Shown here one piece after another: positions 260 to 61,534 of a stretch of DNA of 62,461 nt (position 1 is its first letter; each line of letters starts with the position of its first letter). Source of the stretch: Candidatus Bathyarchaeota archaeon (GTDB taxonomy: Archaea; Thermoproteota; Bathyarchaeia; Bathyarchaeales; Bathycorpusculaceae). The notes below the pieces were generated by a model. It worked only from the letters and a program-made list of their open reading frames with translations, was not told the DNA's origin and did not search any database. A program made the translations under genes and the position numbers. The stretch spans positions 1-62,461 of the forward strand of contig PLYI01000069.1 of NCBI GenBank assembly GCA_003151735.1. The letters run 5' to 3'.

Positions 260-2098
260 TCAAATTGGCGATCCACTGCGTTTTTTGAAGTAGAGAATCA
301 AACCGCTTCCTGAGACAGCGGCAAATATTATTGCTGTCCAAAGCCACCATTGCATCCAAAAAGGTTGCGTATCCGAGTCAACTATGTTGCTTATTTGCAG
401 TTGGTCTATCTGAGTTATAGAGTCATGGCCAATATAGAGTTCATTTTGCGCTGCAATTGGACCTGTTGGGTTGGCTTCTCCTGAGGATACTATGACGGCT
501 TGTTCTTGACCGTTAACGTAGATGTGCATTCCTGAAGTTAAGCTGCGAGCGAAAACAACATGGATCCATCGGTTAAGGGGAATAGGCGCTTTGGTGTCTA
601 TTTCGTTTAGGACGCCGTTTTGAGTTGTAACGTAACCGCGGATTGCTCCTAAGACAGGGGAGCTTGCATTTTGCGGTGTTTCCCCGTTAATGGCAACCCC
701 CACAGTTCTAGTCGGCAGCGGCAACGTAGTTCTTACGCATTCTACCAGAATATTGTTGTAGGCTACGTCTTTGATTTGTTGTACATTGACCCAGGCATCT
801 ATGGTTACTTCTTGAGGGGTTTGCAAGCTAGCGGAGGGCGGAACAAACGCATAGGCTGCCCCATCGAAACTTAAGGCTTGACCAAACTTGCCCGGGACCT
901 GCGCTGGAGTGAACGATTTGTTTCCCACAGTTGACGCTAAGACAGCCGGGTTGTTACCGGTTGAATCGGGTATGACGCCATCTGCTGGGACGTTATCAAA
1001 GGTCCAGAAGGCAACAACGCCGTTTGATGTTACCGATGTAGGGGATATTGCAGAAGGAGTTTCGCCTGGGTTTGAAGTGTCCACCGGCGTTATGAGCGGG
1101 TAGTAATCTGTGTTATTGGAGTTAATCATGTATGGTGTAGATTGGTAATCGCTCCAGTAGTTTCCTCCAGATGGATATCCGTTGTCCCAGTTCTCAACGA
1201 GAAAGGAAGAGTTGCCATAGGCGTTATCGAGGTTGTTAACAAAGTTATTGTGATAAATTTCGTTTGCACGTGGAGCGGCACCCTGAGTTGTAATGTAGAT
1301 TCCATATTTGTTTGCTGCAATTTCGTTGGCATTAATTATGTTTTTTGACCCTGAAAGAAATATTCCTGACTCTGTATTGGAAACTATGGTATTGTCGAAC
1401 ACAATCGAGTAAGATGCACCTAAACCTAGGCCTCTGAAGTTGTTTTGAAGATTGTTTCCGCGGACAGTATTTAAGTAGCCTCCTAAAGCGATGCCTGATA
1501 CGGCGTTTGCGACTATGCTGTTGTTGGAAATGATATTTAATGTACCAGAATAGAATCGAATGCCGTCTTTAATGCTTAAAGTGATAACGTTGTCGGTTAT
1601 GGTTGTGGATGATTGAAGGGCGCAGAAGATTCCTATATAATTATTTTTAATGACGTTGCCGGTGACTGTGCAGTTATCGCCTTGGATATTTATGCCCAAT
1701 GCATTTTGCGTGGGAATAAAGCTATTGACGCTTTGAATTGTGAACCCTGAAACTTTGATGTCTGCTGCCGCCAACGTTAAAACTGCAGGTTCATTTGAGC
1801 CTCCGTTTCCGATAATTATGGTGTTTTTGCTGTCTTCTCCCTGAAGTGATATCGATTTGTTGATTTCGATATTTTCATGGTAAACCCCTTGCTTCACCGC
1901 TATAACGTCGCCTTGGGATGCATGGTTTACCGCTGAAGTTATCGTTGGGTAATCCTGCGGCACAGTTAAAGTGTTTGAGGCGTGACTTGTTTGGATATTG
2001 AACATCCAAATTATTGAAAACAAAATTATTGTTAATGTAAGTGCCTTTAGGATCCCCCTTTTTTTCGCCGTCGGCATAACTTTGGTTTGGATATTCAT
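260..2098 (-). CDS. Exported surface protein: parallel beta-helix plus LamG-like domain, C-terminal anchor
   Basis: This 612-residue protein has an N-terminal signal segment (about residues 18-40, ending near ASNTL). Right-handed beta-helix repeats of the NosD/PbH1 type follow (about 45-320, many G-N-x-I-x-x-N turns). A glycan-binding-like concanavalin/LamG fold comes next (about 365-575, beginning VAFWTFDN), and a single membrane helix precedes a KKRSGSPI tail. The architecture matches archaeal cell-surface proteins that present carbohydrate-binding or carbohydrate-cleaving modules outside the cell. No catalytic residues can be assigned, so the role (adhesion or polysaccharide binding) is inferred. 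It is monocistronic on the minus strand. Confidence 0.85.
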   Translation of the reverse strand: MNIQTKVMPTAKKRGILKALTLTIILFSIIWMFNIQTSHASNTLTVPQDYPTITSAVNHASQGDVIAVKQGVYHENIEINKSISLQGEDSKNTIIIGNGGSNEPAVLTLAAADIKVSGFTIQSVNSFIPTQNALGINIQGDNCTVTGNVIKNNYIGIFCALQSSTTITDNVITLSIKDGIRFYSGTLNIISNNSIVANAVSGIALGGYLNTVRGNNLQNNFRGLGLGASYSIVFDNTIVSNTESGIFLSGSKNIINANEIAANKYGIYITTQGAAPRANEIYHNNFVNNLDNAYGNSSFLVENWDNGYPSGGNYWSDYQSTPYMINSNNTDYYPLITPVDTSNPGETPSAISPTSVTSNGVVAFWTFDNVPADGVIPDSTGNNPAVLASTVGNKSFTPAQVPGKFGQALSFDGAAYAFVPPSASLQTPQEVTIDAWVNVQQIKDVAYNNILVECVRTTLPLPTRTVGVAINGETPQNASSPVLGAIRGYVTTQNGVLNEIDTKAPIPLNRWIHVVFARSLTSGMHIYVNGQEQAVIVSSGEANPTGPIAAQNELYIGHDSITQIDQLQISNIVDSDTQPFWMQWWLWTAIIFAAVSGSGLILYFKKRSGSPI

Positions 2099-2805
2099 TT
2101 AAGATTCACCGCTTAGAACAATGATTGCCCTAAAATATTACTCTCCCCAAGGAACACCCTGTTCTTTTAGCGGAACACCCAAAAAAAATGCGTTATGAGG
2201 AAAGTGGGGTCTGTCAATATTTCGTTCTTCATCTTTCCCAATCAGACTGGGACGGCGACATCATCCCCCGCACATTAAGCGGTAGCACAACCAAATAAAC
2301 ATTACAAAAACAAATGGACAATCAGTCTGACAAGTCTTATTTTCTTTTTGTGTGGGTGTGGCGGTTTTATGGGTGCCACAGGTTCGTTTGCGGATTGGGT
2401 TGTTTTTTGTGTATAAGCTGTTTCTCTGTTGTCTTTTGGTTGTGGGATAACTGATTTTTTCCACACAGGATACATGGATGCATATTGAGTTTGGCTGGTT
2501 GTGGTTGTGGCGGCATGGTGGATAAACCTAAAAGTGGCATGTCCAAAATCAATGTATCAGTTAAAAAAAAGTCAACGGCAGCCAACCACCACGCCCCCTT
2601 CGCCACCCTTGGCGTAGAATTCATCTAACATCTCTATGGATAAGGAGAATAGCGCTAAATTCTCCTTTGACCCCTAAATCCCCTTTTCCGCAGTTAAAGA
2701 AAAAGAGGACTTTCGAAGAGGGACCTCCATCTTATTATGTTCACGAACCAGGCCAGAGCTCAGCAGGGCCTTTTGTATCTATACCGTCCGTCGCTACTAC
2801 AAAAA
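2099..2805. other. Long intergenic stretch without a convincing gene
   Basis: About 700 bases between the surface-protein promoter side and a tiny minus-strand ORF. Open frames here (for example 2367-2624 minus and 2667-2876 plus) have low-complexity, Pro/Gln/Lys-rich translations with no family resemblance or clear ribosome-binding site. An imperfect direct repeat of a short GGAACACCC motif lies at about 2150-2180. I see no RNA gene. Confidence 0.4.
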
Positions 2806-47649: not shown

Positions 47650-50037
47650 TTGCTTGTGAAAATCTCTTTTTGGCTACTGGACATTAACCCTAAAATTGAC
47701 AAAGACAAGGGCACGATTGAGTTGTGGCTGTGGGGAATTGATGCAGCCGGCAATCGAGTGCTCATTGTTGACCGCAAATTTATTGCTTACTTTTATGCTG
47801 TGGTGGCTGAGGGTTCTGATCCATCGAAGGTTGCTGAGGCAATCATGAAGGTTTATGCCCAATCAATTGTGAAGGTTGAAGTCACCCAGAAAAGGTTCTT
47901 TGGCAAACCTGTGGCGGCAATAAAAGTCTGTTGCAGGGTTGCAACCGAAACTGTAAAGCTTGTCAAGCAACTTCGAAGCGTCGAAGGGGTAAAAGATTGC
48001 CTCGAAGACGATATTCGTGCCTCCATGCGGTACCTAATCGATAACAATGTGATTCCCTGCGGATGGCATGAAGTGGATGCGGTGGAAGAAGAGAACGCGG
48101 AGGGTGTAAGAGTAGCCAAGGTTTATGCCGCGAACTCTCCACCTACTCAACTGGATAGCGTGACTGTGCCGTCTTTGCGGGTTTTGGGGTTCTCCATGAT
48201 TTGCTACAGCCGCGAAGGCTCACCTAAACCCGACCGAAACCCCGTGCTAATCATTTCAACCGCAGCTAGCAACGGCGAAACAAAACAGTTCATCGCAAAC
48301 GAAGAAAAAAAAGACAAAACCGTTATAGAAGAATTCATCGCTTACATCAGCCAGTATGACCCAGACCTCATCGCAAGCTACGGCGCCAACACAGTAGACT
48401 GGACCTACCTCAAAGGCAGAAGCCACAAGTTAAAGTTGAAACTGGAATTTGACAGAGCCAAACAGGAACCCCACACCAGCATTTACGGGCATGTTTCCAC
48501 AACCGGCGTTGTGAACATTGACTTAGCCGATTTTATGGACGTGTTTCCCGAAGTTAAGGTTAAAACGCTTTGGAACTTCGCTGAACATTTAGGCGTAATG
48601 AAGGATAAGGAAAGCATCGTTGAGGATGTTTTGTTCGCGGATTACTGGGATGACCAGCAAAAACGCGAAGAGTTAAAGTGTTTTGGGCTAGATAGCGCCT
48701 GCAAAGTCCAGGGCACCTCGGCGTTGCTTTTGGATTTTGCCATGCAACTTGCCAGCTTAACAAGCCTGCCCCTAGACCAGGTGATGACGGCGGCTGTGGG
48801 CTTCCGTGTGGAGTGGTTCCTGATTAAACAGGCGCAGAAAATCGGTGAACTCATACCCAAACGAATCGAGCAGCCTTACCGACCCTACGCTGGGGGACTG
48901 GTGCTTTCTCCAAAGTCGGGTTTGCACGAGAACATTGCAGTTTTAGATTTCAAATCCATGTATCCAAACATCATGATAACCTACAACATTTCACCTGATA
49001 CCTACGTTGCACCAGATGAGCCTGAACCGCTAAACGGCGTCTACGAAGCACCAGAGGTAAAACACAAATTCCGCAAAGCACCGCCCGGATTCTACAAAGA
49101 AGCCCTAACATACCTGATCAATGTCCGAGGCGCAATCCGCCAAAAAACGAAAACCCTAAACCCAAAAACCGTCGAGTACCGCGTTTTAGATGCACGCCAA
49201 AAAGCCGTTAAAATCATAACCAACGCGGCTTACGGCTATGCAGGATGGATTGGCGCTAAATGGTACATTAAACCCGTCGCTGAAGCCGCATCAGCCTGGG
49301 GCAGACACACTATTTTGACTGCGTCTCAGATGGCTGAAAAGGCAGGGATAACCGTGATTTACGGGGACACAGACAGCTTGTTCCTGAATTACGATGAAAC
49401 CAAAATTGGGAAGCTGAGGGAAGAAATTAAACGTGAATTAAAATTAGATGTTGATGTCGACGAAGTTTACAAGCGCATTTTCTTCACAGAAGCAAAAAAA
49501 CGTTATGCAGGATTACGGCAGGATGGAAGCCTCGACATTGTAGGTTTGGAGGTTATCCGTGGCGACTGGGCTGAAGTTGCAAAAAAAGTGCAGGAACATG
49601 TTCTCGAAATAATTCTTACCGAGCCTTCTGCTAAAAAAGCCATTGACTACGTTCGTTCAGTAATCGCTGACTTAAGACACAGAAAAGTTCCCCTGCATGA
49701 CCTCATAATTTGGAAAACCCTCACGAAAGCCCCTGACGAATACGCTATCAAAGCTCCTCATGTGGAAGCAGCAAAAATGCTTAAGGAGAAAGGTTGGCGC
49801 TTAACTGGCGGCGACAAAGTGGGCTACGTGATTCTTGAGGGAAAAGGGCGCTTATACAACCGAGTGAAACCCTACGTTTTCGCCAAGATGGATGAAGTTG
49901 ACGTCGACTACTATGTGACTAATCAGATATTACCTGCAGCCGCAAGAATACTCGTTTTCTTTAACGTAACTGAGGCTGAACTGCTGAAAGAAACAAAAGA
50001 AACACAAGAAATTAGAAGCCTAATGGATTACGTTTAG
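47650..50037 (+). CDS. Family-B DNA polymerase with inactivated 3'-5' exonuclease site
   Basis: 795 residues from TTG 47650 (GTG 47656 also possible). The polymerase domain is intact: motif A DFKSMYPNIM (about 433), motif B KIITNAAYG (about 525) and motif C YGDTDS (about 571). The exonuclease domain keeps its fold but not its catalytic residues. The Exo I D-I-E is S-M-I (LRVLGFSMICYS), Exo II has YGANTVDW in place of YNxxxFD, and Exo III reads CFGLDS where YxxxD is expected. This should be a polymerase that copies DNA without proofreading. It converges with dnaG (four-base overlap). Confidence 0.92.
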   Translation: MLVKISFWLLDINPKIDKDKGTIELWLWGIDAAGNRVLIVDRKFIAYFYAVVAEGSDPSKVAEAIMKVYAQSIVKVEVTQKRFFGKPVAAIKVCCRVATETVKLVKQLRSVEGVKDCLEDDIRASMRYLIDNNVIPCGWHEVDAVEEENAEGVRVAKVYAANSPPTQLDSVTVPSLRVLGFSMICYSREGSPKPDRNPVLIISTAASNGETKQFIANEEKKDKTVIEEFIAYISQYDPDLIASYGANTVDWTYLKGRSHKLKLKLEFDRAKQEPHTSIYGHVSTTGVVNIDLADFMDVFPEVKVKTLWNFAEHLGVMKDKESIVEDVLFADYWDDQQKREELKCFGLDSACKVQGTSALLLDFAMQLASLTSLPLDQVMTAAVGFRVEWFLIKQAQKIGELIPKRIEQPYRPYAGGLVLSPKSGLHENIAVLDFKSMYPNIMITYNISPDTYVAPDEPEPLNGVYEAPEVKHKFRKAPPGFYKEALTYLINVRGAIRQKTKTLNPKTVEYRVLDARQKAVKIITNAAYGYAGWIGAKWYIKPVAEAASAWGRHTILTASQMAEKAGITVIYGDTDSLFLNYDETKIGKLREEIKRELKLDVDVDEVYKRIFFTEAKKRYAGLRQDGSLDIVGLEVIRGDWAEVAKKVQEHVLEIILTEPSAKKAIDYVRSVIADLRHRKVPLHDLIIWKTLTKAPDEYAIKAPHVEAAKMLKEKGWRLTGGDKVGYVILEGKGRLYNRVKPYVFAKMDEVDVDYYVTNQILPAAARILVFFNVTEAELLKETKETQEIRSLMDYV

Positions 50038-51188
50038 GCTAGTGGGATTACGTCTTGGAAAGTCATCAATTCTACGTTTAACGCTGGCTTAACTGCTTCG
50101 GAGATGCGTGATGCAACGATGCGTTTGATGTTTTTGTCAGCTGCAATGTCTACGATTCTCTGGGTGATGATGCCGTCAAAAACTACAGTGTCAACGCCTT
50201 TCATTTGTGAGAGTTTCTCTGCAAGCTGGCTTACTGGTAGACGCTCGATTAATTCGAGTTTTTCATTTAATAGGACTGCTTCAAGTGTGTCAACTAATGC
50301 TTTTGCCGCTTGAATTATAGTGTCTGGGACTTCAACTTTGACGCGTTCTGGAACAACTATCTTTTTGGGTGCTGGGGCTGGTTTGCTTATGCCTGCGGCT
50401 TCTGCTATGGGGAGCTTGTTTTCTAGGGCTTCAGCGATTTCTTTGCAGTTGCATTCCTCAATTTCTTTGCCTCTTGGAGCGCGACCTACAAACTTTACGT
50501 TTGTTACCTGCATGAGTTCTTTTAAGATTAAGTCGCCTCCTCGGTCACCGTCAAGCAACGCTGTGGACGGTCTTTCTTTTGTTATCTTCTTTATTGAGTC
50601 AGGTACTTTTGCGCCTTCAAGGGCAACGGTGTTAAAGATTCCGCATCGCATCAAATTAATAACGTCAGCGCGGCCTTCAACAACGATGATTTCCTTAGCT
50701 TCCATCAAGCCAGGTCCAGCGGGCAAGTCTTCAGGTCCGTACTTTTCTACTTTGCCCACTTTCATAGTGTCAGAGATTTCTTTGTAAACTTCATCTACGC
50801 TGGGCATTGATTCGATGTTCCATTTGTGCAGGATTTCTTTGGCTCGGTCGATGATTATTTTTCTTCGTGCTTCGCGGATATCCTCGATTTTTTCAAGTGT
50901 TACTTTGGCTGAGCATGGTCCAACGCGGTTTATGCTCTCTACGCTTGCAGCTATGAGGGCTGTAGAAACGCGGTCGAGGCTGGTTGGGATGGTTATGGAG
51001 CCTGTAGTTCGATCATTTTTTGAATGTAGGTCGATTTCAATTCTGCCGATACGGCCGGTTTTTTGGAGTTCCCTTAGGTCAAGTTCTGGGCCGAAAAGTC
51101 CTTCTGTTTGACCGAAAACTGCGCCGATCACATCGGGTTTTTCAACTACACCTTCAATTTCAAATCTAGCGTGTACAACGTACTTTAT
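50034..51188 (-). CDS. dnaG: Archaeal DnaG-type primase (Toprim)
   Basis: About 384 residues. The Toprim domain carries EIIVVEGRADVINLM (catalytic Glu) and ALLDGDRGGDLI (DxD). The N-terminal domain opens KYVVHARFEIEGVVEKPDVIGAVFG. The first conventional start is GTG 51131, inside that conserved opening. The true N-terminus extends at least to ATA at 51188, with no ATG/GTG/TTG between it and the TATA-like AAATAAATATAATT (about 51229-51245). Archaeal DnaG is linked to the exosome and RNA processing and has limited primer synthesis. Confidence 0.93.
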   Translation of the reverse strand: MKYVVHARFEIEGVVEKPDVIGAVFGQTEGLFGPELDLRELQKTGRIGRIEIDLHSKNDRTTGSITIPTSLDRVSTALIAASVESINRVGPCSAKVTLEKIEDIREARRKIIIDRAKEILHKWNIESMPSVDEVYKEISDTMKVGKVEKYGPEDLPAGPGLMEAKEIIVVEGRADVINLMRCGIFNTVALEGAKVPDSIKKITKERPSTALLDGDRGGDLILKELMQVTNVKFVGRAPRGKEIEECNCKEIAEALENKLPIAEAAGISKPAPAPKKIVVPERVKVEVPDTIIQAAKALVDTLEAVLLNEKLELIERLPVSQLAEKLSQMKGVDTVVFDGIITQRIVDIAADKNIKRIVASRISEAVKPALNVELMTFQDVIPLA

Positions 51189-51402
51189 CGTAAATGTTTG
51201 GGATGTTCCCGTAAATATGCACTTCCTATTGTAAATTATATTTATTTGATACTGGTTAATCGCATAATGCGAGTTCTTCTCGCAGTGATGAGATTTTAAC
51301 TGTTACTAATTGAGAATTTAGCTGCATTCTATTTAATATAACTTATGTTTTGTGGATATGTATCCCGCGTATCTTCCCTTTTTTCTTTTAGGAGTGTAAG
51401 AC

Positions 51403-51636
51403 TTGACAAAGAAAAAGAAGAGTGTTGGAGTTAGCTTAGTTTTTGCGGCTTTAATCCAGATGGTTTTAGGCTTGTTCATTGTTTACGGTAGCATAACGCT
51501 TTATTCGTTTAATTTAGTGTTTTTTACACTTGCCTTCTCAGCTAATTCGATAGAGCAAACGTTAGCGATTGTGCTTGGAACGTTGGTTTTAACCTCTGGT
51601 TTAATGATGGCTGGCTTATCTAAAAGATTCTTCTAA
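51403..51636 (+). CDS. Small two-helix membrane protein, copy 1
   Basis: 77 residues from TTG: a basic start TKKKKSVGVSL, helix 1 (about 10-30), a short polar hinge (ANSIEQ) and helix 2 (about 50-70), ending LSKRFF. A near-identical copy lies at 52347-52580. The leader ends CCTTTTTTCTTTTAGGAGTG before the start, a pyrimidine tract plus ribosome-binding site shared with other genes of this zone. The function is unknown. Confidence 0.7.
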   Translation: MTKKKKSVGVSLVFAALIQMVLGLFIVYGSITLYSFNLVFFTLAFSANSIEQTLAIVLGTLVLTSGLMMAGLSKRFF

Positions 51637-51862
51637 CTATTTTTCTATTGAACCTAAAGTTAAGTCGATAAGAAAACCATTGGATAGCGTGATCTGCCAG
51701 TTCTGCAAGAGCGCTATTCTTTCCCAATAACTCTAACTTGAGCGCAATTTTTGCGCTGTTTTTGAAGGCTTAATTAAATAACATTTTCTTATGCAAAAAC
51801 AAAGACATCACCGACAGAAAGCCAAGTCGGGGAACATGCCCTTCAGCAAGGCTTTGTTCCCC

Positions 51863-52201: not shown

Positions 52202-52346
52202 AATTAATCGAAGGATTGTTTACATATATAAAATCAACTTGACTATCATTGGAATCGGGAATTGCAAGATATTATTGTAGAGAGCGAATAAAAGAGCCTT
52301 GCTTTCTGGGAGTACCCTTTTTCTTTTTTCTATTGAGTAATGCACT

Positions 52347-52580
52347 TTGACTAAGAAAAAAAGAAGTGTTGGAGTTAGCTTAGTTTTTGCGGCTTTAATC
52401 CAGATGGTTTTAGGCGTGTTCATTGTTTACGGCAGCATAACGCTTTATTCCTTCAATTTAGTGTTTTTTACACTTGTTTTTCCAGCTAATTCTATAGAGC
52501 AAACGTTAGCGGTTGTTCTTGGAGCATTATTTTTCAGCTCTGGTTTAATGATGGTTGGCTTATCTAAAAGATTCCTTTAA
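52347..52580 (+). CDS. Small two-helix membrane protein, copy 2
   Basis: 77 residues, identical to the 51403 copy at most positions (differences such as VF/LF and the last helix) and close at the DNA level too, which implies a recent duplication about 0.94 kb apart. Its stop directly abuts the stop of the convergent Lrp-like gene. The leader again carries CTTTTTTCTATTGAG. Confidence 0.7.
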   Translation: MTKKKRSVGVSLVFAALIQMVLGVFIVYGSITLYSFNLVFFTLVFPANSIEQTLAVVLGALFFSSGLMMVGLSKRFL

Positions 52581-52811
52581 CTATTTAGTCAGCAAGAGCG
52601 TTACTAAGCTGGTTACGCCAGCTGTCTGTCTAATGCCTAATTTAATTATGTCTTTTAGCTTGTCTATGGACATTGCTTTAACTTTTATCACAAGATCGTA
52701 GACACCATATAGGGAATATGCCTCTTCAACTCCTTCTACGCCTTTTAGGTTTTCTAGCACTTTATCTTCGACGCCTAAAGCGGTATTTACTAAGACTAAC
52801 GCAGATATCAT
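52581..52811 (-). CDS. Stand-alone Lrp/AsnC ligand-binding (RAM) domain protein
   Basis: 76 residues that form one RAM domain: ISALVLVNTALGVED, VEEAYSLYGVYDLVIKVKA and the GIRQTAGVTSLVTLLL effector-side strand. It has no helix-turn-helix. Such proteins act as amino-acid sensors that pair with full-length Lrp regulators, or as small octamers. Confidence 0.85.
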   Translation of the reverse strand: MISALVLVNTALGVEDKVLENLKGVEGVEEAYSLYGVYDLVIKVKAMSIDKLKDIIKLGIRQTAGVTSLVTLLLTK

Positions 52812-53834: not shown

Positions 53835-53853
53835 TTTTGTCTTTTTTCTTTTG

Positions 53854-53882
53854 TAGGAGCGATAGAACGCTTTTTTCCTACG
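53854..53882 (+). terminator. Hairpin after the RLGQ gene
   Basis: GTAGG/CCTAC and AGCG/CGCT stack into one hairpin (53854-53882) in a T-rich context 20 bases past the stop. It overlaps the stop codon of the minus-strand fragment ending at 53879. The preceding CTTTTTTCTTTTGTA matches the start of the leaders at 57098 and 60480. Confidence 0.45.
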
Positions 53883-54085
53883 TTATTCTGTTTTTCATGT
53901 ATATTTTTCTTGACGCAAACGCAATTGTGATAGCCACGATAGTTATTGCGGCTATTCCAGTTATTGCATAGAGCATTGTTGACAGGTTGCTTTCTTGTTC
54001 GAATGATGTGACTGTCGGGGTTGGCGTCGTTGTTATCAAGGGAGTCGGTGTTGGTATGGGAGTTTTGATAACGCTTGATGAACCA
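53879..54085 (-). pseudogene. C-terminal remnant of an anchored surface protein
   Basis: The minus strand encodes a Thr/Pro linker (PIPTPTPLITTTPTPTV), then SFEQESNLS, one membrane helix (YAITGIAAITIVAIT) and a basic tail RKIYMKNRIT. An upstream TGA and no start show that the bulk of the gene is gone. It meets the methylase-tail remnant (54060-54223, plus strand) head to head. Confidence 0.5.
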
Positions 54086-55142: not shown

Positions 55143-55325
55143 TTACTTCTTTTTGTTTGTGTCTACGTTTGGCAAATCAAAACGGTTAGGCGCGCTTAAC
55201 CATTGGTCAACATCTTTGGCTTTTGGCGCTTTCAATTTTGAATCTATGTGTTTAGCCCAATCACTTCTCTTAGCTTGAACCCGTTTTGCCTTTCGAATGT
55301 TTCCACCATAACCATGTCTTTGCCG
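55143..55325 (-). pseudogene. Truncated HGYG-family protein
   Basis: The minus strand encodes RQRHGYGGNIRKAKRVQAKR, then SDWAKHIDSKL, DVDQWLSAPNRFDLPN and a KKK end. The HGYG core and basic context match the N-terminal tag of the genes at 57198, 60566 and 61073, but a TGA lies directly upstream and the Met-Gly start is missing. I read it as a decayed fourth member. Confidence 0.5.
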
Positions 55326-55407
55326 ATGTTCTCAATAACTCAAACCTAACCAACCTCAAAAGAAAAATAATAGTTGCAGAAAAGAGTTACCATGAAGCGA
55401 AACTACT

Positions 55408-56019: not shown

Positions 56020-56388
56020 GTGTACAACTTAACCTGTATGACGACAGTTAACACAGAAACCTCTCTGACGCAAAGTTAACAGAACCCGCTATAGCGAGAG
56101 AACTTAGGATAATTGAACAGCTCAGAAGTAGCGCAATTCCTGTTTTGGCTTTCATAAAATTAGCCTCTGAAAAAGGGAAATACTACTAATAACAGTTTGT
56201 TGGTCTATGGATTTAAGATTTTTCATTTTTCTGTTGTACGGCTGAAGTGTTAACCCCCCATAACTTAGCTTGTATCCTAATGCCAAACCTGAAAACCAAA
56301 TACAAAATTCGATATTTATTTGCAGTATTACTCAGAAAATTAGGTATCGTGTGATTAGTTCTCTTTAATCACTTCTCTTTTTTCTTTT

Positions 56389-56502
56389 AAGGCGCCGGAA
56401 GCAATAACCCAAACCACATAGGCCTTAGATCATTTTCCAATTTGGCTGCCTCTTCGCTTCCGTTTGTTCGCCCTTTTTTATTTTTCTATAGAGGCTAAAG
56501 AC
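56389..56502 (+). promoter_or_regulatory. Hairpin leader before the small surface protein
   Basis: CGGAAGC (56396-56402) pairs with GCTTCCG (56456-56462), and AAGGCG with CGCC(C)TT just outside. A T-rich tract (TTATTTTTCTATAGAGG) leads into TTG 56503. The layout matches the leaders at 57098 and 60480 though the sequence differs. The rest of 56020-56388 holds no gene, but 56229-56250 repeats a single-arm version of the stem (TGTACGGCTGAAGTG). Confidence 0.45.
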
Positions 56503-57054
56503 TTGAAAGGGAAAAAGCTGAGTGCCAAGATTCTTATTACTATAGGATTAATTTCGTTATTTTTAGGTTTAGGTCTTATTGGCATGACTGTTTATGCTAA
56601 TATTCAACCTTTTGGCGTACCACTCGGCGTATTTAGTAGTCAAGATGGCCGCTATACTGTTATTTTTACCCCGACACAAGCGACTCTCGCAATCAACCAA
56701 TCGGTAACGTTTACAACCTCTTTTGGATCAGCGATTGACACAACCGCTCACGAAATAACTTATTCTTGGTTTGTTGACCAAAATCAAATACCAGTGACAA
56801 GTTCTTCCTGTTTCCTGTTTTTTGAGAATCCTGGCATTCATCAAGTCAAGGTTGAAATAACGATTGATGGAATCCAAATTAACTGTGTTTCATCTTTAAC
56901 GGTGACAAATCTCGATGGGTCCTTACCATCGGTTTCAAACCCAACTCCAACACCCGTAGCAACAACAGCATTGAACCCAACATACTCTCTTGAGGCAGGT
57001 TCAGTTCTTAGTATTTTTGGCGTCGTATCCATTTTGGTATCAAGAAAAGTCTAA
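56503..57054 (+). CDS. Small exported protein with PKD/Ig-like domain and C-terminal helix
   Basis: 183 residues from TTG 56503: signal-anchor (about 8-32), a single PKD/Ig-like domain (about 45-145, TYSWFVDQNQIP, GIHQVKVEIT), a Pro/Thr linker (NPTPTPVATT) and a short final hydrophobic segment ending in SRKV. It has the same domain style as larger surface proteins of the window but is minimal. Confidence 0.65.
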   Translation: MKGKKLSAKILITIGLISLFLGLGLIGMTVYANIQPFGVPLGVFSSQDGRYTVIFTPTQATLAINQSVTFTTSFGSAIDTTAHEITYSWFVDQNQIPVTSSSCFLFFENPGIHQVKVEITIDGIQINCVSSLTVTNLDGSLPSVSNPTPTPVATTALNPTYSLEAGSVLSIFGVVSILVSRKV

Positions 57055-57097
57055 CCTTTTTCTTAGATAAGGTTAGAAAGTTTTATTTTTCTTATGT

Positions 57098-57197
57098 ACG
57101 GTTGGAACCCCCTATCAGCCAAATAGGTTATCTTCAATTTCAATTTTGTTCCTCTTCCAACCGTTCATCTATTTTTCTATTAGGTGATTGAGAAGAC
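57098..57197 (+). ncRNA. Structured leader of the HGYG gene (stem-loop, T tract, ribosome site)
   Basis: ACGGTTGGAA (57098-57107) pairs perfectly with TTCCAACCGT (57145-57154). The 37-base loop contains CAGCCAAAT and TATCTTCAATTTCA, also present in the 60480 leader. The tail is ATTTTTCTATTAGGTG just before ATG 57198. The stem differs from the 60480 leader by two compensatory pairs (see Findings), so the structure rather than the sequence is conserved. Confidence 0.65.
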
Positions 57198-57422
57198 ATG
57201 GGTTACAATCCTAGAGGCGGTCATGGTTACGGCGATTCAAGGCATGGTTCTAGTAAATCTCGGTTTTTATGGCGTAAACCCAAAAAACAAAAAGAAGTTA
57301 TTTACGTTAAAGACGATCCTGAGCCTAAAATAGCTCCAGAGAAACGATTACTCTACAACAGTTGCAGCAAACATCTAAAACCAAATTCCCATATTTTCTT
57401 TTTTCAATTTAGTAAACATTAA
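57198..57422 (+). CDS. HGYG-tag protein, short copy
   Basis: 74 residues: tag MGYNPRGGHGYGDSRHGSS, then SRFLWRKPKK, a DDPEPK linker and a basic end that may be truncated (the 60566 relative continues). No structure is known. DNA similarity to the 60566 gene is high in the first 120 bases. Confidence 0.65.
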   Translation: MGYNPRGGHGYGDSRHGSSKSRFLWRKPKKQKEVIYVKDDPEPKIAPEKRLLYNSCSKHLKPNSHIFFFQFSKH

Positions 57423-57479
57423 TTTTAACGGTTAAAGTTATTACGGTATTGCACATTATGAAAATTGACGGCTGAAACA

Positions 57480-57650
57480 ATGGCGGAAGCAAAGAAAACC
57501 GTTGAAGCAACGGAACCGATAAAAGAAGATGAAGTTCAGCGTTAACACTGGTTCAAAGACGTATTCAACTTTATGACTTCTAGATGCTCTGCAACAGGCT
57601 CATATACGATTACTTTGCTGCGCCGAGATCTTCATCCAAAAAATCTTTAG
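57480..57650 (+). other. Short ORF broken by in-frame TAA
   Basis: ATG 57480 encodes an acidic 21-residue start (AEAKKTVEATEPIKEDEVQR), then TAA at 57543-57545, and the same frame continues HWFKDVFNFMTSR... to TAG 57648. Not recognised. Included because two other in-frame TAA interruptions occur in the window. Confidence 0.25.
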
Positions 57651-57760
57651 TTCGGATCCGAATCAATGTCGTAGGCCTTAACCTGATGCAAAATGCTTAT
57701 CGTTTCAACCAAAGCTTGCCCACTGGGGTCAAACCAATAACGCCAAATTTCACATTTGTT

Positions 57761-59029
57761 TTATATCCTTTCTTTCTCTGAAGGCACCCGATGATCCTGA
57801 ACCCATTCATATACCTCAAGTGTCAATTTGGTAATCTTCTCCCACGAATAGTTCAATAGAGTCTTCTTCCTGCCGTTCTGCCCCATTTCAAGCGCAACTT
57901 GATCATTCTCCAAGAGAAAAAGTATTTTCTTCGCCAATTCGCCTGCGTCGAGATCATCGAAAAGCAAGCCGTCTCGTCCTTCATCAATTACGTATTCACT
58001 CACAGGTGTCTTAGCTCCAATGACAGGTTTTCCTGCAGCCCAGGCCTCAAGAAAGACGCCTCCAAAGGACTCGAATTGGGATGGGTTAACAAGCACAGTC
58101 GCGGCGAAGAGTGCTTCTTTCTTGAGTTCATCCGAGGCGTCTGGCAACACCACAATTCTCGTTTCTTTCTGTGCAATTTGCTTGATTTCTTGAGTATATG
58201 GTGTGGATTTGCCAACCAGCACAAGGGTTGAATTGGGTTTTCTCTTCCACAACTCTTTCATGCTTTCGATTAAAAGATCTGCACCTTTGTATTTCTCCAT
58301 CCTTGCAATGTGTAAGATTATGCTGTGATCGCCGGGGATTCCGTGGTCGACTCGAAACAGAACAGATGCTGGTGGCTCAAACGCTTCAGGCCTCACACCT
58401 ATCCCTGTTATGAAGATTTTGCTCGGATCAATTCCTTTTCCCGCGTAGTACTCTTTTTCGTACTTGGTGAAAACTATCATAGCGTCTGCGGAACTCGCTA
58501 TTCTCAGGCTAAAAGGCATTACCTTTTGGGTGTACGGGTCAAGAGTATGAGTTCGGGGTGTAAACACGAAAGGCACATGACTTTTCTTACAGGCTTTTTC
58601 AAGAAAGAAAAGCTCTCCATGTCCAATCTGCGTACCATTGACAACGTTGAAACTGCCTGAACGCACCTTGTCCAGGTAGTGTTTGGTAGCTAGGACGGAG
58701 TATTGAAGGGCATCGAGAAAAAGAAGCGAGTCTGAACTTACTAAGCATATTCTTCTTGCTTTCTCAAGCAACAAGTGAAGAAATTGTGTGAAAGTTCTCG
58801 AGGCGGAAAAATTGTTCACGTGAAAACGGAGAACCTTCACACCCACATCCTCAGGAGGGATCTTTTCTAGGTATTTATTTCTTTTAAGGTCTCCAATTTC
58901 TGCTAAATCCGTCGTGATAATCGTTACGTTATGGCCCATTCTCACAAGCTCTATCGACAACTCGCGTGTATCGCGTTCGCAACCGCCTATAACGGGGTAG
59001 TACAGACGGGCAAAATGCAATATGCGCAT
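57761..59029 (-). CDS. Family 4 glycosyltransferase
   Basis: 422 residues from ATG 59029. GT-B fold: an N-terminal RLYYPVIGGCERDTREL loop binding the acceptor, C-terminal nucleotide-sugar site with HIARMEKYKGADLLIESM, LVNPSQFESFGGVFLEAWAAG (EX7E motif) and GAKTPVSEYV. It transfers a sugar from a nucleotide donor. It overlaps the intergenic side of a beta-helix acyltransferase-like gene on the same strand, so both likely modify one glycan. Confidence 0.93.
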   Translation of the reverse strand: MRILHFARLYYPVIGGCERDTRELSIELVRMGHNVTIITTDLAEIGDLKRNKYLEKIPPEDVGVKVLRFHVNNFSASRTFTQFLHLLLEKARRICLVSSDSLLFLDALQYSVLATKHYLDKVRSGSFNVVNGTQIGHGELFFLEKACKKSHVPFVFTPRTHTLDPYTQKVMPFSLRIASSADAMIVFTKYEKEYYAGKGIDPSKIFITGIGVRPEAFEPPASVLFRVDHGIPGDHSIILHIARMEKYKGADLLIESMKELWKRKPNSTLVLVGKSTPYTQEIKQIAQKETRIVVLPDASDELKKEALFAATVLVNPSQFESFGGVFLEAWAAGKPVIGAKTPVSEYVIDEGRDGLLFDDLDAGELAKKILFLLENDQVALEMGQNGRKKTLLNYSWEKITKLTLEVYEWVQDHRVPSEKERI

Positions 59030-59072
59030 GGGTGATTCGCGCAGACTCTTAGAACTTGCCATGGTTATTCGT

Positions 59073-60005
59073 CTAATCGCAATTTGCTTTTATAATCTGA
59101 AGAAGGGTTCCTTTCATCTGTACCTCTTCTTGCCCATTTTTATTTTTCTTAATCACCAAAAATAATGAGCAAGTCTGATCGGGCTGAATATATCCAGTTA
59201 TAGGAATGGTGCTTAGTATTCTTGCTCCAGCACCCACTATTGTCCCCGGATAAATAATTGTGCCCGATGAACATGAAACGCCTGTTCCGCTTATGATTCC
59301 GAAATGAATCGCCTCAATTGGGAGGACCTTGTAAGTAGACTGGTCTAAAATCTTGATCTTGTTTCCATTTGAGTAGTTGGCAATAACTATCCTTTGCCCT
59401 ATCATGGCGTGATCTTTATTGAGCGGATCATAGTTTTTGCTCTCTCTGGAAATCGGAATAGTGTGAGTTGCCCCGAAGTTTGAACACGGACCTATAATGC
59501 TGTCATTTATGTTGCATGTGTGTATATTCGATGAGTCACCTACTATGGATCGGTTTATATCTGAATAGCCCCAAATATTGCATTTTTTTCCGATGTATAG
59601 ACCACCATCTTGGTTTCCTCTCAAATTAGAGTCAAAAATTTTGCTTTTTTCTGATATGAATGCTGGTCCAGTTATTATTGAACGACCAATTGTTACATCT
59701 TTTTCAAAGCTTACTGGTCCATTGATAGTAATACCAAACCCTTGAAACGAACTACCCAATGTAAACGATTTCTTGATGATGATCTTTCCAGGCTCTTCAG
59801 AAATAAAATGCTCACGAACAAGTTGGTCGACCTCAATATTTTTGAGGCACTGACTGCAGGAATCAATTTTATTTTTCACAAAGGTATCCTTATTTTTAAG
59901 TAACCTGGGAAAATCATCGGCTTTTTCTACCCCAACAAATAGCCTTTCTAGTTCCAATGGGAACCTCAGGTCTCGTATTAGATTGAGAATAAAATCTTTC
60001 TGCAA
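59073..60005 (-). CDS. Left-handed beta-helix protein without nucleotidyltransferase domain
   Basis: 310 residues. The bulk (about 75-290) is hexapeptide/left-handed beta-helix repeats (IGRSIITGPAFISE, IGKKCNIWGYSDINRS, IGPCSNFGATH, PGTIVGAGARIL). Such domains occur in acyltransferases and in the C-terminus of GlmU/RmlA-like enzymes. Here a pyrophosphorylase domain is absent. The N-terminal 75 residues contain CSQC. It is the partner of the adjacent GT4 gene. Confidence 0.78.
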   Translation of the reverse strand: MQKDFILNLIRDLRFPLELERLFVGVEKADDFPRLLKNKDTFVKNKIDSCSQCLKNIEVDQLVREHFISEEPGKIIIKKSFTLGSSFQGFGITINGPVSFEKDVTIGRSIITGPAFISEKSKIFDSNLRGNQDGGLYIGKKCNIWGYSDINRSIVGDSSNIHTCNINDSIIGPCSNFGATHTIPISRESKNYDPLNKDHAMIGQRIVIANYSNGNKIKILDQSTYKVLPIEAIHFGIISGTGVSCSSGTIIYPGTIVGAGARILSTIPITGYIQPDQTCSLFLVIKKNKNGQEEVQMKGTLLQIIKANCD

Positions 60006-60236
60006 CTGGACTTTTTTGCGACTCGGTGTTAGACTCTTTCTTATTTCTATTTCTATATGACACCAAACCCCGAGTTCTACAGCTGAACTCTGGATCGTAT
60101 ATTTAAGACTATGTGATTGCGTGAATGCGCTTACAAAACGCTAACTTAAAAATAGAGCCAGAACATGCCGGGCTTTTACACGTTGGGTTTCAGAAATAAT
60201 ATCATAGATTCATAGACCTCATTAACAATTTAAGAA

Positions 60237-60459
60237 GAGAGTTCCAGCAAGAATCCCTAAAATCTTTGATGCCTTGAAGGAACTTTGGGAACTTGAACCT
60301 GACACTAGATTAGGGCAGTTTTTACTAAACTTTGTTTTTCGTGGTGGAGATGCCAAAGAAAAAACTAATTATCTTATGTACGAGCAAGAAGACAATTTAA
60401 CACTGAACCATTTCTTGAAAACGCTAAAGCGTGAAAAGGCTTCTAGAGGTTATTCGTAG
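60237..60459 (+). pseudogene. RLGQ-motif protein, N-terminally truncated copy
   Basis: Reads RVPARIPKIFDALKELWELEPDT, RLGQFLLNFVF, YLMYEQED, with no start codon except an internal TTG (60274). From 60286 to 60372 the DNA matches 53661-53747 over 87 bases with one difference I could see. This is close enough to indicate a recent duplication or gene conversion 6.6 kb apart. Confidence 0.6.
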
Positions 60460-60479
60460 TTTTCTTTCTTTTTTCTTTT

Positions 60480-60565
60480 GTATGGCTGGAGTGTCAATAG
60501 CCAAATCTATCTTCAATTTCATTCCCTTCCAGCCATACGCTCTATTTTTCTATTGAGGATTTAAC
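60480..60565 (+). ncRNA. Structured leader of the second HGYG gene
   Basis: GTATGGCTGGA (60480-60490) pairs perfectly with TCCAGCCATAC (60528-60538). The loop carries ATAGCCAAATCTATCTTCAA and the tail is CTATTTTTCTATTGAGG before ATG 60566. It begins directly downstream of the truncated RLGQ gene and a TTTTTTCTTTTG tract. Same plan as the 57098 leader with a changed but complementary stem. Confidence 0.65.
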
Positions 60566-61039
60566 ATGGGTTGTAATGCTCGTAGCGGTCATGGGTACGG
60601 TAATCAAAAGCACGGTTCAGGTGGTTCTCGTTTTTCTTGGCGAAAACCCAAAAAGCCTAAAGAGGATGTTTACGTTAAAGACGATCCTGAGCCTAAAGTA
60701 CCTGAAGAAACTATCGTTTGGACTCCTCGACCTTTGGCGCCTGGTGTGCAGGTCTTTTTGGATACGCCGACAACCTGGACGTCTAACGCTTCTAAAGCGT
60801 TGCTTTCAAACGATTTAACAAAGCAAACCGAGTTGGGTTATCAAATAAGCCTTTTAGCGGAATCTCAGAAACTCGGAGTTGAGGTATTGTCCACTGAAGG
60901 TCAAACTTTAAAGTATAAAATTATCAAGATTGTTGACCAAAAGCCTGAAGATAAAGCGGTTTCTTTTGCTGATATGGCGTATATTGGCAATCTGAAAAGC
61001 GCTCTAAAGCCGAACGGTTACGCCTTGATAGTCAAATAA
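60566..61039 (+). CDS. HGYG-tag protein with a C-terminal L15-like-sized domain
   Basis: 157 residues. The tag MGCNARSGHGYGNQKHGSGG is followed by a basic linker (SWRKPKKPKED), DDPEPKVPEET and a compact domain (about 60-157: TWTSNASKALLSNDL, KLGVEVLSTEGQTLKYKI, VSFADMAYIGNL). It resembles a small ribosomal- or nucleoid-type fold, but I cannot place it. The stop is followed after 33 bases by the next HGYG gene. Confidence 0.75.
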   Translation: MGCNARSGHGYGNQKHGSGGSRFSWRKPKKPKEDVYVKDDPEPKVPEETIVWTPRPLAPGVQVFLDTPTTWTSNASKALLSNDLTKQTELGYQISLLAESQKLGVEVLSTEGQTLKYKIIKIVDQKPEDKAVSFADMAYIGNLKSALKPNGYALIVK

Positions 61040-61072
61040 TTATTTCTATTTTTCTTTTGATGTGATTGAAAC

Positions 61073-61534
61073 ATGGGTTATAATGCTCGTTCTGGACATG
61101 GTTATGGAAATCAAAAGCATAGCCGTTCTAGTTGGAAAGGTTCTGGAAAAGCTAAACGTGACGCAAAGCTAGCTATGGATAATTTTAAAGACAGGTCAAA
61201 GCGTAGTCAATCGCAAGATTTGCGCATGAGTGCTCCTATTGCGAAAAACATAAGTGTTTATTTGAAATCGCCAGGTGAGCTCGATTGGTTAGGCGTGGAC
61301 AATCCTAGTACGTTATCGAAGTTAGCGAAGAAAGATTCTCAGATTGAAATTTTGGATTCTGAAACCAAAAAGAAGCATCGCTTCAAAGTTGTCAAAAAGA
61401 CTGAAGCTAAGAAAGAACCTGAGAAACAAGAACTAAAAGCAGAAAGCTACAATCCAATAAAAGAAGAATCTAACCATAAGTTACCGAGCGCAAAAGAAAT
61501 TCTGGAAAAAGCCCAACAGATGTATATTGGCTGA
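61073..61534 (+). CDS. HGYG-tag protein, second full copy
   Basis: 153 residues: tag MGYNARSGHGYGNQKHSR, basic linker, then ISVYLKSPGELDWLG, DNPSTLSKLAKKDSQ and VVKKTEAKKEPEKQ, and an acidic/basic tail. The middle (about 55-105) aligns loosely with the domain of the 60566 protein. It overlaps the next ORF by eight bases. Confidence 0.72.
   Translation: MGYNARSGHGYGNQKHSRSSWKGSGKAKRDAKLAMDNFKDRSKRSQSQDLRMSAPIAKNISVYLKSPGELDWLGVDNPSTLSKLAKKDSQIEILDSETKKKHRFKVVKKTEAKKEPEKQELKAESYNPIKEESNHKLPSAKEILEKAQQMYIG

Follow-up and report, generated by a model that had tools for sequence, protein, structure and literature searches.

A leader hairpin with compensatory base changes in gene modules of a Candidatus Bathyarchaeota archaeon

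Leaders and genes at the locus

The window analyzed here is the whole stretch of 62,461 nucleotides of contig PLYI01000069.1 (assembly GCA_003151735.1, Candidatus Bathyarchaeota archaeon). Its gene modules appear to be what is left of integrated mobile elements, a label that we infer from their gene content. Leader A and its neighborhood have the following features.

56464 to 57054, forward strand: gene upstream of leader A, "PKD-like" (Pfam match below the cut-off)
57085 to 57092, forward strand: T-rich box ATTTTTCT, upstream of hairpin A
57095 to 57107, forward strand: stem, 5' arm (13 columns; mismatched U-U at 57097/57165)
57131 to 57140, forward strand: loop word TCTTCAATTT, invariant
57155 to 57167, forward strand: 3' arm of the stem
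57172 to 57184, forward strand: T-rich box and Shine-Dalgarno-like AGG, preceding the truncated HGYG gene
57198 to 57422, forward strand: truncated HGYG gene, 74-aa ORF

Leader B lies downstream, in these surroundings.

60274 to 60459, forward strand: short KELWE gene copy, directly upstream of leader B
60469 to 60478, forward strand: T-rich box TTTTTTCTTT, upstream of hairpin B
60479 to 60491, forward strand: 5' arm of the stem
60510 to 60519, forward strand: loop word TCTTCAATTT, invariant
60527 to 60539, forward strand: 3' arm of the stem
60545 to 60558, forward strand: T-rich box and GAGG, preceding the full HGYG gene
60566 to 61039, forward strand: full-length HGYG gene, 157 aa
61049 to 61060, forward strand: T-rich box preceding the second HGYG-type gene, no significant hairpin
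61073 to 61534, forward strand: second HGYG-type gene

The original prediction had proposed a stem in each leader, and both are present with the arms that it gave. The core arms of leader A, ACGGTTGGAA (57098-57107) and TTCCAACCGT (57155-57164), can be extended to 13 columns, and in leader B all 13 columns are paired, two of them as G-U. The two matched arm changes between A and B (C-G to T-A and T-A to C-G) proved real in the column-wise comparison, the loop segments said to be common, AGCCAAAT and TATCTTCAATTTCA (family D9), were found in both, and TTTTTCTATT-AGG/GAGG does terminate both leaders, starting at 57172 and 60545. The HGYG genes expected after both leaders need a correction, since the one at 60566 is full-length and the one at 57198 is a truncated copy, with a protein match to residues 1 to 64-66 of 157 and a DNA homology to the full copy that runs without gaps as far as 57340. 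The full-length protein is without match in Pfam or PHROGs. The gene at 61073 has the box and the N-terminal part in common with that at 60566 and differs in the C-terminal part. A bacterial-type intrinsic terminator or attenuator has a U-run directly behind its stem; here a U5 run follows, but the T-rich box starts 2-5 nt 3' of the stem. In leader B the upstream U-tract is TTTTTTCTTTT, shortly past the preceding stop codon, and the downstream tract is UAUUUUUCUAUU.

Copies of the hairpin and covariation of the stem

The assembly holds four copies of the leader in three independent forms (A, B and C), the two that were added by our search being A', a near-duplicate of A, and the independent leader C. 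The latter is located on contig C117 before another gene family, the homologue of the PKD-like gene at 56464-57054, is itself preceded by a KELWE homologue, and holds a third compensatory pair. Covariation is thus seen across three independent copies, as the original prediction had asked of a functional RNA, in a small sample whose members all come from one assembly with 5.36% contamination.

In the stem alignment of the four copies, changes on both sides were found at 3 of the 13 pairs, and 50 of the 52 cells were paired (96.2%, vs 22.9-42.3% with the partners slid). When substitutions were placed at random, at least three double changes arose with P 0.003-0.011 and full pairing with P 1e-5 to 2e-5. 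One of the five stem-alignment measures, the count of pair types, was not above shuffles (121/500). The loop between the arms is 35-47 nt long and contains an invariant UCUUCAAUUU, the word TCTTCAATTT being unchanged in all four copies. Between C and the other leaders the stem, the loop word and the boxes are kept, and most of the loop is unalignable. The synonymous divergence between the carrier genes is considerable, with dS of 1.59 for the HGYG genes of B and C117 and 1.05 for the PKD-like genes of C38 and C117, although only 0.47-0.68 for the HGYG comparisons A2 vs B, A vs B and A2 vs C117 (47-85 codons).

The stem windows folded with z values of -3.62 (A), -3.33 (B) and -6.10 (C), and dinucleotide shuffles folded as well in 0/200 cases for A and 1/200 for B. 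The inverted-repeat scores of A and B also beat the best of 30 composition shuffles. A sense-strand RNA is favored only weakly. The sense strand folds better against shuffles than the opposite one (-1.98 vs -0.89 in A, -2.96 vs -2.75 in B, -3.14 vs -1.43 in C), and the one-sided departures, U-G and G-U, both in B, pair on the sense RNA and would be A-C on the opposite strand.

We scanned 24 hand-picked positions (23 boxes or box variants plus the non-box window 53900) with 30 composition shuffles for each position. All four known hairpins scored above the best shuffle, A' narrowly (13.0 vs 12.2), and L010:9484 (10.5 vs 10.3) and L137:1210 (10.1 vs 10.0) did so marginally. Candidate hairpins between boxes at 56388-56476, 53848-53900 and C117 1213-1258 were dropped (z -0.12, -1.53 and -1.12). 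An inner helix of A and B was rejected as a conserved feature, being absent from C, and so was a pseudoknot between the loop word and the ribosome site, which was above shuffles only in B and whose pairing is not conserved (fraction of 1000 shuffles matching the complementarity with the ribosome-binding region: B 0.034, A 0.488, A' 0.548, C 0.453).

Searches for relatives

Rfam 15 at gathering thresholds gave no match in the window, and at E up to 5 the sole match in 57050-60620 was to a lncRNA model (E 1.5, 57765-57887), outside the leaders. A covariance model built from the four copies scored them at 92.9-97.7 bits, and the next score was 22.6 bits, in the same genome. It had no match in 31 other genomes of the genus (E up to 0.01, at most 135 candidates scored per genome) and found no copy in 255 other genomes of the class with tighter filtering (16 candidates per genome scored among the genomes listed). 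Searches of viral and genome contigs by stem pattern and covariance model gave no convincing copy of the leader. The stem pattern matched 85 genome and 14 viral stretches, and the 5' pattern 4 more viral ones; the model was applied to 28 of the 103 loci, 18 of them viral and 10 from genomes, and the best score was 22.6 bits (E 0.033) at three viral loci, where most of the stem is missing. The 3' pattern matched 120 times, in 24 cases with a partner of 9-10 bases; 21 of these are overlapping loci of the same genome, and the other three are bacterial (L073, L085, L102) and lack the loop word. A DNA query against 60 relatives (E up to 0.001) found nothing.

The HGYG protein was likewise not confirmed in any of 43 pattern stretches of genome contigs or 13 of viral contigs, and had no match in phages and plasmids (E up to 0.01) or in the 255 other class genomes (E up to 0.001). 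In viral contigs, 147 KELWE and 122 PKD-like stretches came up, of which not one was confirmed; the PKD-like profile had a single weak match in the 31 other genomes of the genus (G029, E 1.9e-4), and the 96-aa neighbor protein was absent from the 255 class genomes.

Comparison with phage start-associated repeats

The nearest known layout is that of the SAS/ESAS repeats of the cluster K mycobacteriophages (PMC3203893). In both cases a short asymmetric repeat stands just 5' of the start codons of unrelated genes, and in a subset of genes an inverted repeat with a variable spacer is found immediately upstream, in variants that differ at few arm positions. The differences are several. SAS/ESAS belong to phages and the leaders to an archaeal element; the start box here is the T-rich TTTTTCTATT..AGG, whereas SAS is a 13-bp GGGATAGGAGCCC repeat at translation starts, sequences that are unlike by reading. 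The spacer is 35-47 nt here, with an invariant word, and 4-13 bp in the vast majority of ESAS, and about half of the SAS have an ESAS, while a clear hairpin was found here at 4 of the 24 hand-picked positions. The arms here also support RNA pairing, with 96.2% of cells paired and three double changes, which departures in ESAS generally fail to do.

The ESAS inverted repeats were judged likelier to be DNA-binding sites, with a consensus that varies by phage subcluster (PMC3203893), and a similar operator is an alternative for the leaders, with the two arms serving a DNA-binding protein of the element as inverted half-sites, and with A, B and C as specificity variants, in which case the half-sites would change together without RNA pairing. 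The arm centers are spaced by 48, 50 and 60 bp, within about 0.2 helical turn of one another (hand-worked as 13 plus loop length, at 10.5 bp per turn), which speaks for such sites. All three stem variants are, however, present in one genome assembly, the loop word is invariant too, and the pairing is near-complete, with both one-sided departures being sense-strand wobbles, whereas the ESAS departures mostly do not pair (PMC3203893). We consider an operator unlikely.

Replication template switching, which copies one arm onto the other and keeps a palindrome paired with no structural selection, has been reported for RNA stems, where it can also yield compensatory changes of several bases (PMC8794818). 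Between A and B the two pair changes fall within four positions, and the U-U column of A is paired in B. The quality criteria of that study, however, keep source and target within 8 bp, and the arms here are 35-47 nt apart. Such a relic would also leave unexplained the invariant loop word and the fixed position before the T-box and start codon, and we regard it as quite improbable.

Boxes and reshuffling of leaders and gene bodies

The T-rich box stands before many module genes and the hairpin only before some of them. The alignment of C2 with C38 begins at 56476, beside the box at 56481, and 40-nt bins show 92-100% identity from 56481 to 57200, with a drop on either side. Near-identity thus runs from a box to a start codon, which indicates that leaders and gene bodies have been reshuffled. 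The hairpin itself precedes HGYG on C2 and C38 and the PKD-like gene on C117. This edge, this change of neighbor and the tyrosine recombinase encoded on C22 could also point to the box-bounded hairpin segments as a movable cassette or a site of recombination between modules, but no significant hairpin is found at the left edge, 56481 (score 9.5 vs a shuffle maximum of 11.7; z -0.12), so that exchange does not need the hairpin and homologous recombination between repeated boxes suffices, and terminal repeats read by a transposase are expected to keep their sequence and not to covary, which makes this reading very improbable.

A proposed structured leader RNA

Cis-regulatory leader RNAs (riboswitches, ribosomal-protein leaders, attenuators) are structured, lie between an upstream gene and a start codon, and have a covarying stem and conserved loop nucleotides, a likeness that extends to the leaders described here. 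Unlike the Rfam cis-regulatory leaders, these consist of one simple stem, match no Rfam family and were found in one genome of those searched. Of the original reading as a functional RNA, the covariation across three independent forms stands, and "riboswitch-like" is unsupported because C does not conserve the inner helix and Rfam gave no match. We lean, somewhat beyond even chances, to a functional RNA hairpin of some kind. It may act as a small regulatory RNA element of its module genes; from the sequences, we infer that the leader would be transcribed, fold as RNA and control expression of the gene behind it. With A and A' that gene is truncated, so that the intact stem need not function there at present.

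Leaders A and B would then be copies of one element of structured RNA, a loop of 35-47 nt closed by a stem of 13 bp, placed between U-rich tracts and just 5' of the ribosome-binding site of some module genes. In the most likely mechanism that we can propose, itself rather doubtful, the stem and loop word would bind a host or element factor, which would set how often transcription stops or the 3' end is processed at the flanking U-tracts, and with it the output of the downstream gene. U-tracts are archaeal termination signals bound by aCPSF1, a point in favor; most archaeal terminators lack a strict requirement for a hairpin, a point against (PMC8716108). Like the terminators described there, the tracts are runs of at least four U, sometimes doubled, several of them shortly after a stop codon; unlike them, a tract is also found just 5' of the ribosome-binding site of the next gene, and two tracts flank a covarying hairpin.

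More generally, although we hold it only as a tentative possibility, a family of archaeal mobile elements may mark the starts of exchangeable genes with a T-rich box and give some of these genes an added RNA hairpin in compensated variants, as an RNA counterpart of SAS/ESAS by which expression control is kept as genes move between modules. To our knowledge, within a narrow search of the literature, few structured leader RNAs have been described from archaeal mobile elements. The leaders provide a case in which RNA pairing can be separated from a DNA-operator reading, an issue raised for the phage ESAS repeats. If the proposal is true, the box common to unrelated genes, the exchange edge and the subset of genes with a hairpin would show how elements pass on expression control together with exchangeable genes.

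Covariation in the leader hairpin

The original prediction, that the leaders of two HGYG genes (a repeated small gene family) have paired stems, was borne out on re-inspection of leader A, before the truncated copy at 57198, and leader B, before the full gene at 60566. As to further copies, we have found two more in the same assembly (124 contigs, 3.5 Mb, completeness 97.76, contamination 5.36), whose genes, with matches to DnaG and to a family-B polymerase among them, point to an archaeon. One of them, A', is nearly identical to A and was located on contig C38 by nucleotide search. The other, leader C, is a third independent form on C117, a contig reached by protein search, and its downstream gene is PKD-like (named after a sub-cut-off Pfam match), not HGYG.

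57095-57167, leader A: stem of 13 columns that includes a 10-bp core and a single U-U mismatch; loop of 47 nt
60479-60539, leader B: 13 of 13 pairs; loop of 35 nt
L137 (contig C117) 1200-1138, minus strand, leader C: arms TGTACTGTTGGAA/TTCCAACAGTACA

The stem windows gave folding z values of -3.62 in A (none of 200 dinucleotide shuffles equally good) and -3.33 in B (1 of 200). Over longer windows the values were -1.98 (A) and -2.96 (B) on the sense strand, and -0.89 and -2.75 on the opposite one. The T-rich box, the stem and the loop word TCTTCAATTT are common to A, B and C, while the loop of C is mostly unalignable with the others.

Covariation was scored over the 13-pair stem of alignment A3, a statistic that rests on three independent sequences. 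Seven pairs were invariant, three had changed on both sides, two showed one-sided changes giving G-U or U-G, and one was U-U in A and A'. Paired cells amounted to 96.2% (50/52), and to 22.9-42.3% once partners were slid by 1-3 columns. Out of 500 shuffles of the 3' letters, 11 did as well as the real stem on four measures and 121 on the number of pair types, figures that are counts and not probabilities. Compared with A, the two arms have 3 and 4 substitutions in B, and 1 and 2 in C. When these were placed at random in the arms, at least three double changes had a P of 0.003-0.011, and B and C came out fully paired with a P of 1e-5 to 2e-5. Covariation in at least three independent copies had been set beforehand as the test, and A, B and C, three sequences only, give three double-changed pairs.

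The carrier genes have diverged: dS is 1.59 between B and C117 in the HGYG genes, and 1.05 between C38 and C117 in the PKD-like ones. Shorter comparisons among HGYG genes gave 0.47 (A2 and B, 85 codons), 0.67 (A and B, 47 codons) and 0.68 (A2 and C117, 85 codons).

Reshuffling of leaders and gene bodies

We have compared identity in 40-nt bins. From the box at 56481 as far as 57200, next to the HGYG start codon at 57198, the identity of the window (contig C2) with C38 is 92-100%; it is 45% in the bin before 56481 and 55-80% beyond 57200, up to 57360. The BLAST match starts at 56476. The HGYG body of C38 resembles instead the gene of leader B (93-100% over 60653-60772, 80-90% over 60563-60652), with leaders that are unlike (43-67% over 60460-60562). 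Besides, the PKD-HGYG junction carries hairpin A in C2 and C38 and is without hairpin in C117. These near-identity edges, the mismatch of body and leader in C38 and the differing junction indicate that leaders and genes have separate histories, with junctions at a box or start codon where comparable.

Two adjacent proteins at 60566-61534 have the box in common, and their coding sequences also agree over roughly the first 50 nt (MG.NARSGHGYGNQKH, 84% DNA identity). Their C-terminal parts differ, as if one start had been fused onto different bodies.

Gene surroundings and T-rich boxes

Repeated small genes lie in the interval between a DnaG-like and a superoxide dismutase gene, and appear also on C38, C117 and C22.

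50034-51131, DnaG-like gene (NCBIfam DNA primase DnaG)
51378-51642 and 52323-52586, two copies of the 77-aa MTKKK gene, 88% alike; also on C38, C117 and C22
61785-62399, superoxide dismutase gene

The KELWE gene is found twice in C2 and on C117, and the PKD-like gene in C2, C38 and C117. The repeat holding the 77-aa gene begins at a T-rich box, and its product is hydrophobic by eye. Contig C22 also codes for a tyrosine recombinase (E 9.1e-20 to Pfam PF00589) and for a HEPN protein of the AbiV type (L139:2322-2984, E 2.2e-16), possibly a defence gene of the element. We infer that these genes are what is left of mobile elements that had integrated.

The window has 27 instances of the box core T5CT[AT]T over its two strands, 14 of them within this region (17% of the window). 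In 3 of 12 region ORFs versus 0 of 58 outside, a candidate start has the core no more than 35 nt before it, counting ORFs of at least 100 aa, overlapping and spurious ones included. Several boxes follow shortly after a stop codon and lead to a Shine-Dalgarno-like AGG. A clear hairpin was seen at 4 of 24 hand-picked positions (one position not a box).

Between the hairpin modules, in opposite orientation (57761-60005, minus strand), lie a glycosyltransferase and a gene with sub-cut-off Pfam beta-helix matches, beside a 187-bp stretch (59988-60173) 97% identical to C38. The left end of L137 (C117), reverse-complemented, and the start of L139 (C22) have 25 bases in common around a T-rich box; the two contigs are possibly neighbours, and assemblies may break at the box.

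Distribution of the element

In its own genome, the four-copy model scored its training sequences at 92.9-97.7 bits, a match by construction, and the next best at 22.6 bits; no fifth close copy was found among the 150 of 2203 first-look candidates scored. The model had no match in 31 other genomes of the genus, nor in 255 others of the class, where the filters were stricter and each genome had only few candidates scored. Among 256 genomes, the HGYG protein was found in its own only. The exact box TTTTTCTWTTGAGG is present in 14 of 31 genomes searched, and 8 of its 28 places precede an open frame of at least 45 aa at a start-like distance; the model found no hairpin in the stretches around these places (best new match 18.8 bits, E 0.34).

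A related 67-aa family (LSYTERRRHGYGGTIRRAKRVQ...), with the HGYG-like N-terminus in common with the window proteins and the same T-rich box upstream, extends to other genomes of the genus (weakly in G143).

C22 (L139) 2093-2296, minus strand
Window 55146-55367, minus strand
Own genome (G000), contigs C6 and C32
Genomes G018, G003 and G143

Stops interrupt several copies, and the box with a broken start is also found at C70 of the own genome and in G005.

Nature of the leader element

The covarying stem, in three independent forms, partly supports the functional RNA of the original prediction; there was no Rfam family match for the leaders, and a simple translational switch is disfavoured, the pairing of loop word and ribosome-binding region beating shuffles only in B. 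On balance we lean slightly towards a functional RNA hairpin of some kind.

A DNA operator, with half-sites that would co-vary with protein specificity, is a possible alternative: such half-sites are considered for ESAS in PMC3203893, and the arm spacings of 48, 50 and 60 bp are roughly in helical phase. Template switching can repair arms, as PMC8794818 describes, but criteria stated there limit the distance of source and target to 8 bp and the arms here are 35-47 nt apart. The layout is like that of SAS/ESAS, the start-site repeat and adjoining inverted repeat of cluster K mycobacteriophages; however, the element is not a member, because its box sequence differs and its arms support pairing.

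In the favoured reading, the leader RNA would act on the next gene, possibly via its flanking U-tracts; in archaea, according to PMC8716108, U-tracts are termination signals bound by aCPSF1. This small covarying leader element is real, known from one genome so far, and its function is putative.
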